The notes under the pieces were generated by a model, which was given only the letters and a program-made list of their open reading frames with translations, was not told the DNA's origin and did no database searches. From Clostridia bacterium (lineage in GTDB: Bacteria; Bacillota; Clostridia; UMGS1883; UMGS1540): a stretch of 51,586 bases of DNA. Positions 11,415 through 36,869 of this stretch are shown here, piece by piece. A program made the translations under genes and the position numbers. How positions within the stretch are numbered: the first letter of the stretch is position 1; every line of letters begins with the position of its first letter. Location of the stretch: NCBI GenBank assembly GCA_017436645.1, contig JAFSCR010000010.1, positions 1-51,586 of the forward strand, in the 5' to 3' direction.

Positions 11415-12686
11415 CTATTCGCTTGTAATAACAGCCGTTTTTTGAATGAGCTTAGAAACATACAGCACCAAAAAAGCAGCCCCTAAAAAGGAAATAAACG
11501 AAAGAACCTGCTGTGCATATATATGCACACCGAAAAGAGAAATCTCGGCACTTTGGAGAACAGCCAAAAGGGGTGTGGCCAAAAGTGTGGCCAAAAATCC
11601 GAAAAGACCGCAGATTGTATCCTTTACGCACAAAACATTTCTTCTCTTTTCAGGTGGGACAAGGTCGAAAACAAGATTAAACTGTGCACTGTTTATGCCA
11701 CCCATAGCTGCTGAATACAATATGTTATGAATCAAAAACATAACATGTCCGTTTTTGGGGGTGGTAAATGCCGTTGCCAAAAAGGAGGCACCTACAATAA
11801 AGTAACAAATGCGAAGCATTTTTGAAAAAGAGTTTTTATCTGCATATCTGCCGAGAAATACAGAGGCCAAAACTCTGGAAATTGCACCAAAAATGGACAA
11901 AAGCCCTATATAGGTCATACTGAAATGCAGTTCCTTTACCTGATACACGCCAAAAAATGGTACGGAAAAAGCACTGCAGCACGCCCATAAAACGCCCTGA
12001 CCGATAATATAAATAATGGTCTTATCCGAAAAAACATCCTTGGTGCTTTTAAAGAAGGAAACACGGGGCGCAGGTTCTGTTTCCTTTTCTTTTGCACATA
12101 TAAGGGACAGGGTATGTACCACCGTCAGAAAGAATATGATGCCGCCGCAAAAAATCATGGAAGCGGTTTCGTTTCCCATAGCATCAAAATAATCGACAAG
12201 CGAGCCGAGTAAAAACACGAACACCATACCGCTGACTAAGGATACTGCCTCTTTAAATGCGGTAAAACTTCCTCTTTTTTCGTTTGCAACCAACTGCATA
12301 AACCAGTTTGTTCTGGCGGCGGTGGCCATATTCAGAAGAAAATAGCCGCCTAAAAGCGCCACTACAAAAATGGCGGTACGGATGCCATGGGGCACATTTA
12401 TAAACGGCGTAAGATACAAAAGAACGAACAAAAGCTCGTTTATCGTATAAAAAAGAGTTACTTTGCGCTTTACGCTTCCGCCTTTAAAAACTGCAATCCC
12501 GAAAAGCTGGAACACACAGCCAAGATTGACAAAGGAACTTAAAAGGGCGGTAAGGCCATCGGAAAATCCAAGGGAAAGTGTAAGCTTTGCAAGGTATGCC
12601 CCTGTTATGAGAAGGGAAATCAGATAATTCGCCGTCTCCTCAATGATATAACAAATTCTGCCGGTTCTGTAAATATCCTTTTGCAT
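11415..12686 (-). CDS. MFS transporter
   Basis: A membrane protein of 423 residues with about twelve hydrophobic helices in two halves and a basic central loop (residues about 190-215). It belongs to the major facilitator superfamily. Segments such as NLVFDLVPPEKRRNVLC resemble MFS carriers found in sugar operons of Firmicutes. It is the second of two adjacent MFS genes; it shows little similarity to the first, so they are not a recent duplication. Substrate is inferred to be a product of the glycan enzymes in the operon. Start ATG 12686 follows AAGGTGTAG. Confidence 0.75.
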   Translation of the reverse strand: MQKDIYRTGRICYIIEETANYLISLLITGAYLAKLTLSLGFSDGLTALLSSFVNLGCVFQLFGIAVFKGGSVKRKVTLFYTINELLFVLLYLTPFINVPHGIRTAIFVVALLGGYFLLNMATAARTNWFMQLVANEKRGSFTAFKEAVSLVSGMVFVFLLGSLVDYFDAMGNETASMIFCGGIIFFLTVVHTLSLICAKEKETEPAPRVSFFKSTKDVFSDKTIIYIIGQGVLWACCSAFSVPFFGVYQVKELHFSMTYIGLLSIFGAISRVLASVFLGRYADKNSFSKMLRICYFIVGASFLATAFTTPKNGHVMFLIHNILYSAAMGGINSAQFNLVFDLVPPEKRRNVLCVKDTICGLFGFLATLLATPLLAVLQSAEISLFGVHIYAQQVLSFISFLGAAFLVLYVSKLIQKTAVITSE

Positions 12687-33287: not shown

Positions 33288-34085
33288 ATGAAAAATCCGC
33301 TACAAATCACAAAACTAATCAATTACCGCCACATCCACCATGAAAACGACTATGTTTTCGGCGGACACAGTCACACGAATTGGGAGGTTAATATCATATT
33401 AAAGGGGACTTTTGAAGTTACATATGATGATACAGTATATACCCTCGAAGAAAATATGCTGATTATTTACGAGCCGGATATATTTCACAGAAGCCACGTC
33501 ATTTCTGCCGAGCGAGCAGAGGTTTTTATCTTTCATTTCATGACCGAGGATATCCCAAAACGAAAGGGTGCCGGCATATTCGCTCTTTCGGAGCTGGATG
33601 CAAGTCTTGCGCGGATTGTGATGGAGGAGGCGGAAAAAAATGCCAACCCAAAAGATACGCAAACACTTTTGGCGAACACCTTCAATTATGAAGTGCAAAA
33701 ATTTTTGGAGCTTCTCTTAATTCGCAGCATGCGTAGCAAAACGCTCCCGCCCGTCAAACAAAGTGCGGAGGAAAAACTATACCGCCAAGCTGCCACCTAT
33801 ATGAAAGAAAATATTGAAAAAAATCTTACCATGAATGAAATTGCAAAACATTGCCGTACCAACACAACAAAACTAAAAAGAGTTTTTAAAAAATTTACCG
33901 GCTCAGGCGCAATGACCCATTTTGCCGGCATGAAAATCACCGCTGCAAAAATGCTTTTAAGGGAGGACCTCTCCGTTTTGGAAATCAGCGAACGGCTGGG
34001 GTATTCCTCCCAAGCCTATATGTCTCTCTGCTTTAAAAAAGAGACGGGGATGTCGCCCCTGCAATACAGAAAATCTCTTTTATAA
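33288..34085 (+). CDS. AraC-family transcriptional regulator
   Basis: A protein of 265 residues. The N-terminal cupin (GGHSHTNWEVNIILKGTFEV, then LEENMLIIYEPDIFHRS) is the effector-binding part. The C-terminal double helix-turn-helix has LTMNEIAKHCRTNTTKLKRVF and VLEISERLGYSSQAYMSLCF, ending with the family signature KKETGMSPLQYRK. Start ATG 33288 follows AAAGGAG. Divergent from the SLH glycosidase-like operon, which it probably activates in response to a sugar. It is a clear paralogue of the frameshifted regulator at 36079. Confidence 0.85.
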   Translation: MKNPLQITKLINYRHIHHENDYVFGGHSHTNWEVNIILKGTFEVTYDDTVYTLEENMLIIYEPDIFHRSHVISAERAEVFIFHFMTEDIPKRKGAGIFALSELDASLARIVMEEAEKNANPKDTQTLLANTFNYEVQKFLELLLIRSMRSKTLPPVKQSAEEKLYRQAATYMKENIEKNLTMNEIAKHCRTNTTKLKRVFKKFTGSGAMTHFAGMKITAAKMLLREDLSVLEISERLGYSSQAYMSLCFKKETGMSPLQYRKSLL

Positions 34086-34089
34086 AAAA

Positions 34090-34115
34090 GGAGGTGTAAT
34101 AAAAATTACACCTCC
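34090..34115. repeat. 26-bp terminator palindrome, copy 1
   Basis: GGAGGTGTAAT and ATTACACCTCC pair around AAAA. Directly follows the AraC stop codon. An identical copy lies at 34360-34385. Only this copy has the A-run on its left and lacks a T-run on its right. Confidence 0.9.
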
Positions 34116-34359
34116 CAGACTGTCGAAAAAGTCGTTCTACCGCAAGAACAGAGAATGATTGCAAAAGCCAAAGTGGAGTTACCTTTCTCGATAAACAACA
34201 AATTAACCACAAGGGAAACATCGAATTTCCCTTGTGGTTTCTTGCTTTTTACGAAGTTGAACTCTGGCGTACCATCGTACGCCGACGAATTCAACTTCGC
34301 AAAAGATAACTTCCTTTTTCGAAGTCTGCCAGCGTGTCGATAGGTTTATCGACACGCTG
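34116..34359. mobile_element. Hairpin-rich element inserted in a terminator (MITE-like)
   Basis: About 244 bp with imperfect terminal inverted repeats (AGACTGTCGAAAAA at 34117-34130 and TTTTTCGAAGTCT at 34315-34327). It also has strong internal hairpins: AACCACAAGGGAAA with its complement (34205-34239); CGAAGTTGAA/TTCAACTTCG enclosing GGCGTA/TACGCC (34252-34299); and CCAGCGTGTCGATA with its complement (34329-34360). It lies between identical copies of a terminator palindrome. A 62-codon leftward open frame spans much of it (34106-34294) but has no ribosome-binding site, so I do not call it a gene. Mobility is inferred from this layout. Confidence 0.65.
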
Positions 34360-34385
34360 GGAGGTGTAATAAAAATTACACCTCC
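34360..34385. terminator. 26-bp terminator palindrome, copy 2
   Basis: Same palindrome as 34090-34115, here followed by a T-run at 34386-34392. It serves the rightward direction after the element, and the MBL gene (leftward) ends just beyond it. With the A-run beside copy 1, the two halves look like one ancestral bidirectional terminator that was split. Confidence 0.85.
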
Positions 34386-34390
34386 TTTTT

Positions 34391-35182
34391 TTATGCCTGA
34401 TTTTCTTTTTCCAACATGGCATCCAAAGCGTTTTCAGTTGTAAGAAGGAACCTTTGCCACTCTTCCCTATCAAGAATGCTTTCGCCCGCCAATACTTTTT
34501 CCCGTTTTTCTTCGGTTCGGTTTTGGCCGGGATGATTGCCGAGCACCAAATCCACGTGCTCTTTTGCGAGCTTATGAAGCGCTTCTCTGAATTTATCACG
34601 GCAAGTAAACGGCAGGTTATAATGATTTAAAAAGTCCCGTTCCATACTGTTGAGCCCTGCGCCACCCTGCATTGCCGCAATAATCTTCTCCCCATTTTCT
34701 TCGCTGTTTATGAAGAAGGAAAGAACGCCATCTGTGTGACCGGGTGTTAAAACACAACGGATTTTGGTAGAACCGAAGGTAAAAACATCACCATCCTCCA
34801 CCAGAACATCGCAATTAAAAGGCGGCAAGCGGTCATAACCGAGTTCCACTGCCCAGGAAAGGTCATACGTTCCGTTTACAATATCATTATCAATGCGGCT
34901 TATGTATGTTTTAGCACCACTTAATGCTTTGAAACGCTCGGTACAACCGAAATGATCATAGTGACCGTGAGAATGAAAAATGGCGCAAACATCCTTTATA
35001 TCAAGGCCCATTTCTTCCATGCTGGAAAGGATTTGATCGTACATATCAGGATATCCCGTATCAATCATGACAAGACCGCATTCTGTTTTGATAATATGCA
35101 CAGAAACCTGCCGGCTGCCAACGAAATAAATGTTTCCGAACATTCTGAAAGGCAAAATGCTTGATTTCACTTTTTTAAACAT
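34391..35182 (-). CDS. Metallo-beta-lactamase-fold hydrolase
   Basis: A cytoplasmic protein of 263 residues. The zinc motif is HSHGHYDHFG near residue 72, with the preceding strand MIDTGYPD, the later His in LTPGHTDGV near 148, and a final His in VLGNHPGQ. This is the glyoxalase II/MBL fold. Known members cleave thioesters, lactones or other esters. In an operon with an HpcH/HpaI aldolase it could open a sugar lactone, which is inference. Start ATG 35182 follows AAGGGGGATTG, 15 bp after the aldolase stop. Confidence 0.8.
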   Translation of the reverse strand: MFKKVKSSILPFRMFGNIYFVGSRQVSVHIIKTECGLVMIDTGYPDMYDQILSSMEEMGLDIKDVCAIFHSHGHYDHFGCTERFKALSGAKTYISRIDNDIVNGTYDLSWAVELGYDRLPPFNCDVLVEDGDVFTFGSTKIRCVLTPGHTDGVLSFFINSEENGEKIIAAMQGGAGLNSMERDFLNHYNLPFTCRDKFREALHKLAKEHVDLVLGNHPGQNRTEEKREKVLAGESILDREEWQRFLLTTENALDAMLEKENQA

Positions 35183-35197
35183 TCAAATCAATCCCCC

Positions 35198-35959
35198 TTA
35201 AAATTTTTCGATTTCTTTCTTGTTTCGCATAAGCTCTGCAGCTAAAAGTGTAATCTCCGTACCAATCCAGTAGATGTTCATTCCTCTGTCGTGCCAATAC
35301 TTTGCTTCTTTATCGTCATTCATAAACATACCAATGGATTTTTTGTATTTCTGACAGATTTCTACCGTTTTTTCTATGTTTGCAACAAGCGGTTCTGCTT
35401 GCATATCCAGGCCACAACCCATAGAAACAGCCATATCGCAGGGGCCGATAATAATGCCGGCAACGTGCTCTGCGTATTTTTCAAAAATATCCCCAAGAAG
35501 CTCTGTTCCCTTTTTAGACTCAATCTGCAAAAAGAGAAGGCGGTTTTCATTGATATCATAAATATCTTCTCCTTTTCGAAGAAGCGCTCTGCCGCCTACA
35601 CCCTTTTTACCGTAAGGGTAAAAGCGCATAGAGGAAATTGCCGTTTCTACTTGTTCAAAGGATTCGGTTCTGGGAATCAGCACACCGTCTGCGCCCATGT
35701 CAATAGGTTTGGAAATACAGTGGTATTCGCAGTCCTGTACTCTTGTAATAACGGGCAAATCTACCATATGGCACATCTGAACGAAGTCGCCTATATTTTC
35801 GGGATAGAAAGACCCGTGTTCCAGATCCATTACGAGAAAATCCATTCCTGCATTTTTATATACGGCAGGAAGACCCGTAAAGCCGATATGGCAAAGCATA
35901 GAGGAATACAGTTTATCTCTGTTTTCCAGTTTCTTTTTCAGTTCCTGTATTGCATTCAT
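35198..35959 (-). CDS. HpcH/HpaI family class II aldolase
   Basis: A cytoplasmic protein of 253 residues. It has the TIM-barrel signatures of this family: DFLVMDLEHGSFYPENIGDF near residue 40, the metal/Arg strand VITRVQDCEY, GADGVLIPRTESFEQVE near 92, and IESKKGTELL then GIIIGPCDMAVSMG near 175. Members cleave 2-keto-3-deoxy sugar acids or related 4-hydroxy-2-oxo acids to pyruvate and an aldehyde. The start is ATG 35959 because TAGGAGG lies before it. Divergent from the second AraC gene, and paired with the MBL hydrolase. Confidence 0.82.
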   Translation of the reverse strand: MNAIQELKKKLENRDKLYSSMLCHIGFTGLPAVYKNAGMDFLVMDLEHGSFYPENIGDFVQMCHMVDLPVITRVQDCEYHCISKPIDMGADGVLIPRTESFEQVETAISSMRFYPYGKKGVGGRALLRKGEDIYDINENRLLFLQIESKKGTELLGDIFEKYAEHVAGIIIGPCDMAVSMGCGLDMQAEPLVANIEKTVEICQKYKKSIGMFMNDDKEAKYWHDRGMNIYWIGTEITLLAAELMRNKKEIEKF

Positions 35960-36078
35960 TATCAAAGCCTCCTAAAAAACTATTGAAATTTATTTCTATT
36001 TATATTATAATTATAAAAAACAGACAGGTCTATATAAAATCAGCCAGAAATTTTATAATATCAGTCAGGAGCCTAACT

Positions 36079-36869
36079 ATGCAATCACAAATCAAACCAA
36101 ATGCGCTTCTTCGCTACCGCAGGTATAACAGAGAACACAATTTCATTTTCGGCGGTCACAGCCATGCAAACTGGGAAATTGATATTATTCTGAAAGGTAC
36201 TTTTGAAGTTACAGTGGATGATTCAGTTTTAATACTACCTGAAAATACGCTCATTTTATACGAATCAGACGTTTTTCACAGAAGCCGTATTATCTCCAAA
36301 GGGCGGGCGGAAGACGTTGTAATCCATTTCACATGCAAAACTCTTCCAAAAAACGTTTTTACAGGCGTTTATGAGCTTTCCGATACCGATATGGGGCTTA
36401 TGCAAGTTCTGATGGAAGAAGCTGAAAAAGAGCCACGGAGCGGGATGAATTTTGTATGTCGGCAGATGAATTCACCGAGCGCGTCAAAACGCTTTTTGAA
36501 ATATTCCTTGAAAGAATTACGGAAAATCAAATTAAACCCTCCGTTTTAAAACACCCCATGGAGCAGACCTATCGGCAAGCTGTAACTTTTATGAAACAAA
36601 ATCTCGAAAAGTCGCTTACCATTTCGGAAATTGCAAAGCACTGCCACGTTTCCGATACAAAACTGAAAACTATTTTCCAGCACTTTACGGGAACAGGTAT
36701 AATTTCTTATTTTTCTTCCCTGAAAATCAGCGAGGCAAAAAAACTTTTAAAAAGTGGTGCCTCCGTTTATGAGACAAGCGTCCAACTAGGGTACTCTTCA
36801 CAAGCCTATTTTTCTATCTGTTTTAAAAAAGCGACGGGGATGACACCATTACAATATAAAAAGGCATAA
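36079..36869 (+). pseudogene. AraC-family regulator, frameshifted
   Basis: The start at 36079 (after AGGAG) gives the same cupin as the regulator at 33288 (FGGHSHANWEIDIILKGTFEV). The frame then slips: the matching C-terminal part, with LTISEIAKHCHVSDTKLKTIF, VQLGYSSQAYFSICF and ATGMTPLQYKK, lies in the -1 frame from about 36430. Comparison with the paralogue puts the break at a run of five As (36425-36429) in the EEAEK region; one extra A would restore one 263-residue protein. It could be a real mutation, a sequencing error, or -1 slippage on the AAA codon. The two fragments would otherwise be a lone cupin and a lone DNA-binding domain. Confidence 0.75.

Follow-up and report, generated by a model that had tools for sequence, protein, structure and literature searches.

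How did two identical terminator palindromes come to flank a short element between two convergent genes, and what moved the element there? The locus lies in a 51,586-nucleotide stretch of Clostridia bacterium DNA (contig JAFSCR010000010.1; hereafter the window), between a + strand gene for an AraC-family regulator (33288-34085) and a - strand gene for a metallo-beta-lactamase-fold (MBL-fold) hydrolase (34391-35182). As the initial annotation of the window had it, the palindrome GGAGGTGTAATAAAAATTACACCTCC occurs at both 34090-34115 and 34360-34385 with 100% identity, enclosing 244 bp (34116-34359, + strand), and we read the duplicated 26-bp palindrome as a target-site duplication. An A-run (34084-34089) adjoins the left palindrome only and a T-run (34386-34392) the right palindrome only, a division that the annotation had also noted and that we see both in the sequence and in a terminator scan of the window. 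In that scan, the full + strand terminator uses the right copy only (34359-34386), with the T-run as its U-tract, and the full - strand terminator uses the left copy only (34116-34089), with the A-run 5' of the left palindrome as its U-tract. A third, internal terminator (34205-34239) scores in both orientations. Further along the window, at 35950-36869, lies a second AraC-like gene that is split over two overlapping frames (199 + 137 aa); its DNA is about 70% identical to that of the AraC gene at 33288-34085, of which it resembles a frameshifted paralogue.

Ends and fold of the element

The 244-bp element begins with the left terminal repeat CAGACTGTCGAAAAA (34116-34130, + strand) and closes with a right terminal repeat at 34345-34359 (+ strand), so that the imperfect terminal repeats of the initial annotation are borne out (CAGACTGTCGAAAAA versus CAGCGTGTCGATAAA). 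The left end matches ends of IS1182-family insertion sequences (ISs) at 15/15 positions in three genomes (G254, G151, and G061) and at 14/15 in two others (G053 and G102), and the right end matches IS1182 ends at 11-13/15 positions, including 12/15 against the left ends of G254, G151, and G061. Beyond these ends the interior has no recognizable IS1182 sequence, and no transposase gene is found among the open reading frames of 34116-34359; because of this the element is classed as a non-autonomous derivative and not as an IS.

Its interior is highly structured. The right terminal repeat is the 3' arm of a right-end hairpin, H (CAGCGTGTCGATA..TATCGACACGCTG; 34330-34359, + strand), and the left end recurs internally in inverted orientation (CTTTTTCGAAGTCTG; 34314-34328, + strand), where it pairs with 34116-34131 to close a large stem. 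Within that stem lie hairpin P4 (34251-34303, + strand) and, at 34205-34239, the internal terminator of both orientations, whose sequence varies among host lineages. In our alignment of copies (A1, columns 125-160) this terminator-like hairpin is lineage-specific in sequence and constant in its position beside GCTTGC. The single-strand fold of the element is far better than that of shuffled sequences (z = -10.4), and the stem of P4 is retained in relatives through compensatory changes: 13/14 pairs of its outer stem are altered on both sides, as are three pairs of hairpin H, in each case well above shuffled and slid controls. The covarying fold may act as RNA, may form as a hairpin in the DNA, or may insulate transcription. 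A search of 15 loci returned 0 Rfam matches at gathering score, and the element was not taken to be a structured RNA of riboswitch-like kind on that account, though its stems covary.

Copies in other genomes and the extent of the duplication

The window's own genome holds only one copy of the element. DNA searches recovered further copies in related genomes of the same family, order, and class, and a single-copy curiosity could therefore be dismissed. The end pattern matched 22/391 sampled genomes of the class, several of them with 10-35 copies, and named public matches with the mini-element architecture were mostly Clostridia and Oscillospiraceae MAGs. Ructibacterium gallinarum (G102) carries 26 right-end hairpins and at least 20 copies of the mini-element. 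Nearly all copies examined are directly preceded by a terminator-like palindrome that is repeated directly after the element; across many Clostridia genomes, this palindrome abuts the element and varies from copy to copy. Both ends are present in 113 copies, and near-identical palindromes of 20-49 bp (median 26 bp) flank 90 of these on the two sides, each copy being set in a different terminator-like palindrome, as the initial annotation would have predicted for further copies. Such an architecture, shared by so many copies with a different palindrome each, is not due to chance. The duplication is centred exactly on the dyad in 82/90 copies and to within 1 nt in 89/90; the duplicated segment has A as its first base in 76 and T as its last base in 81 of these 90, and the sequence outside the duplication is A-rich on the left and T-rich on the right, like that of bidirectional intrinsic terminators. 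In several targets the palindrome extends as A/T pairs past the duplicated part, and thus the cut is not always made at the outermost pair.

Most DDE transposases cut with a fixed stagger and leave short duplications. The median of 26 bp could suggest an ordinary DDE transposase with a simple preference for palindromic DNA and a long, nearly constant stagger of some 25 bp, as the IS1202 group gives duplications of 24-29 bp (PMC10045372). We consider this improbable: the lengths run from 17 to 49 bp and are centred on the dyad throughout, including 35-49 bp in long stems. Moreover, no protein exceeded the cut-off of the ISNCY/IS1202-type model NF033594 in any of 18 carrier genomes (0/18), whereas searches did find IS1182 transposases, in ISs that share the ends of the element. 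An IS1202/ISNCY mobilizer was rejected on this result.

The remaining 23/113 copies mostly vary by loop indels, by an inverted loop, or by paired changes that affect the two arms. In about seven the left and right palindromes are unrelated, which misassembly or recombination between copies would be expected to produce, and one (L186) has no right-hand palindrome. A few copies with recombined or unequal flanking palindromes, along with tandem arrays, might suggest that the second palindrome arose by recombination or gene conversion after insertion. We give this essentially no credence, since independent insertions in dozens of different palindromes are all duplicated, the sample size by itself refutes it, and a pair of empty and filled sites (described below) shows the same. 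Copies without the duplication would have spoken against the initial reading, and some do lack the right palindrome: in eight (L132, L180, L187, L192, L196, L202, L203, and L204) the left palindrome and the element are followed directly by flanking, often T-rich, sequence. These same copies, however, also lack hairpin H, whose 3' arm carries the right terminal repeat, and so they look like right-end deletions.

Several other arrangements were seen among the copies. In five mini-elements (L128, L254, L179, L043, and L158) and in one intact IS1182 (L474), the two flanking palindromes have loops that are reverse complements of each other, as if the hairpin had flipped during or after insertion. 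Ructibacterium contig ends (L242, 4995-5523, and L251) contain a tandem palindrome-element-palindrome-element-palindrome array in one terminator. A 48-bp mini-element (L455, in G053 C53, ~11647-11694) consists of just two facing IS1182 ends between two different palindromes, and in a Candidatus Gemmiger sequence (L260, from 338 onward) a GC-rich palindrome is followed by a different short sequence that starts with CAGACTGTCGAAAAA and for which no right end was located. Fragments of IS256-type and IS3-type transposases fused to two copies (L240 and L042), identified by eye, were taken to be chance neighbours. Autonomous copies with the same interior were not present among the 26 Ructibacterium right ends or among 123 contigs from public scans.

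IS1182-family partners and an empty site

When the carrier genomes were searched with an IS1182 transposase model, five contained matches. In one (G053), a multicopy IS1182-type IS with perfect 15-bp ends (CAGCCTGTCGAAAAA) is preceded by terminator palindromes. The assembly is broken at its copies, but 16/20 right junctions can be matched to a left junction that has the same palindrome (17-36 bp). This IS has a terminator-like hairpin directly inside the terminal repeat at both ends. In R. gallinarum, an IS1182 copy with these ends is co-resident with the mini-elements. A protein search of other Clostridia recovered intact IS1182 elements of 1.5-1.7 kb with whole-palindrome direct repeats of 25 bp (G278), 24 bp (G400), 24 bp (G121), 30 bp (G099), 23 bp (G286), 35 bp (G361), 22 bp (G201), 30, 24, and 24 bp (three copies in G205), 25 bp (G363), 20 bp (G257), and 17 bp (G176). 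Six intact transposases score 386-461 bits on NF033551 (transpos_IS1182; curated cut-off, 270 bits), and the IS1182 transposases have DUF772 and DDE_Tnp_1_6 domains. One locus (L472, in G278) joins both kinds of element in tandem, as palindrome-IS1182-palindrome-mini-element-palindrome. The window's own genome (~94% complete) yielded no transposase gene of the IS1182 family.

An autonomous IS1182 also provides a natural empty site. Where one species (G361) has palindrome-IS-palindrome, its sister species (G241) has a single palindrome; the left flank is identical over 220 bp, and the right flank is shared for about 18 nt, with one T fewer, up to the point of divergence. Nothing is missing from the filled site relative to the empty one. 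Relatives with empty sites, which the initial annotation had suggested seeking, were thus found for an autonomous IS1182 and not for the window copy, whose AraC-MBL neighbourhood was not found intact in 39 relatives; none was found for other mini-elements either, including a glmS-adjacent copy, where flanks are too divergent within the genus. The proposal that the element targets terminator stem-loops and duplicates the whole stem is upheld by this empty site and by the 90/113 copies. By contrast, the suggestion of a mechanistically isolated element did not survive: it is a non-autonomous derivative of IS1182, a family known to target hairpins (PMC5678879; PMC4923244).

This family connection brings in another outcome, in which the target hairpin is replaced by the element's own hairpins and nothing is truly duplicated, as happens with IS1272 of the same family (PMC5678879; PMC4923244). 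Such replacement is extremely unlikely here, given that the flanking palindromes are specific to each target and identical on both sides, and that the empty site has one palindrome of which nothing was lost on filling. The conserved fold and the location in terminators also led us to consider an RNA-based or structure-dependent mobile element, whether akin to a group IIC intron or moved by a Cas1-like integrase that duplicates whole repeats. Although covariation in the hairpins, the single-strand fold (z = -10.4), and the copies in which one hairpin precedes the element and the second is absent would suit this idea, the ends and the mode of duplication are common to IS1182 ISs that encode a DDE transposase, and together with the lack of Rfam matches at the 15 loci this leaves it very unlikely.

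We conclude that the window element very probably descends from a stem-loop-targeting IS1182 IS as a non-autonomous, MITE-like form, inserted in a bidirectional terminator common to the convergent AraC and MBL-fold genes. This conclusion draws on the 15/15 left end, the same duplication by intact IS1182 elements, the empty site, and the tandem locus. What we observed directly comprises the family, its ends, the intact elements related to it, and a palindrome duplicated exactly where the insertion lies; the element was apparently moved by IS1182-family enzymes.

Proposed mechanism and known systems

We propose that an IS1182 DDE transposase, acting in trans, would bind the CAGnCTGTCGAAAAA ends and join them to the target stem-loop at both of its 5' feet; the stem-loop would probably be exposed by cruciform extrusion or by the opening of the DNA in replication or transcription. 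The entire stem-loop would then be copied to either side by gap repair, and the length of the duplication would therefore track the hairpin (17-49 bp) and not a fixed stagger. These steps, from mobilization in trans and the recognition of an extruded stem-loop to 5'-foot joining and hairpin-copying repair, are the ones we infer. Copying of the complete hairpin would let a transcript from either side cross the element and reach, in the distal copy, a stem-loop that has kept its U-tract. Both neighbouring genes would in this way retain termination, and the insertion should be nearly harmless. We hold the balance to be even on a broader proposal: that IS1182 transposases of Clostridia read structure and not sequence, that the hairpin sets the duplication length, and that structured mini-elements have specialized on terminators as safe sites in which termination is preserved.

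In reference tables the direct repeats of the IS1182 family are variable, and a review is cited for the statement that some members target palindromes; for these reasons, whole-hairpin duplication may in part already be known to IS curators. The variant described here is best read as a structured non-autonomous derivative of IS1182-family elements with whole-hairpin target duplication. A duplication that tracks a hairpin of variable length is an outcome only drawn as hypothetical by Wan et al. 2017, as pathway b, the alternative outcome of 5'-foot joining (PMC5678879). The elements described here offer a natural, well-sampled system for how a transposase measures a stem-loop, provide ends and a duplication signature for annotating such elements in Clostridia, and may illustrate how a terminator can host an element and still function in both directions.

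Among known systems, IS1272/TnSha1 of staphylococci has a transposase of the same family and targets potential stem-loops with no primary sequence preference; several of the hairpins into which it is reported to insert are confirmed terminators (PMC4923244). IS1272 is reported to target stem-loops and to replace them (PMC5678879), and IS1272/TnSha1 insertion reportedly deletes the stem-loop without duplication (PMC4923244), whereas the window element retains it twice; the loss of the target stem-loop without duplication that marks IS1272-type insertion is not what we found. From autonomous IS1182 ISs (NF033551) the window element differs in its length of 244 bp, its lack of a transposase gene, its structured interior, and its extra right-end hairpin. 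The IS1202 group (IS481-like) likewise makes long target duplications of about 25 bp, but in discrete length classes that are not linked to hairpins, and its transposase family went undetected over cut-off in the carriers. Group IIC introns also insert at intrinsic terminator hairpins; they make no target duplication, have no DDE-type ends, and require a ribozyme and a reverse transcriptase. Bacterial MITEs (RUP, Chunjie, QMITE, and others) are similarly short, ORF-less, and dispersed, with the ends of autonomous ISs and a target duplication. The element described here shares these features, being short, non-coding, and multicopy with IS terminal repeats and a target duplication, dispersed in R. 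gallinarum and single in the window genome. Unlike those MITEs, elements of the window type duplicate a whole hairpin of 20-49 bp and keep their interior stems by compensatory change.
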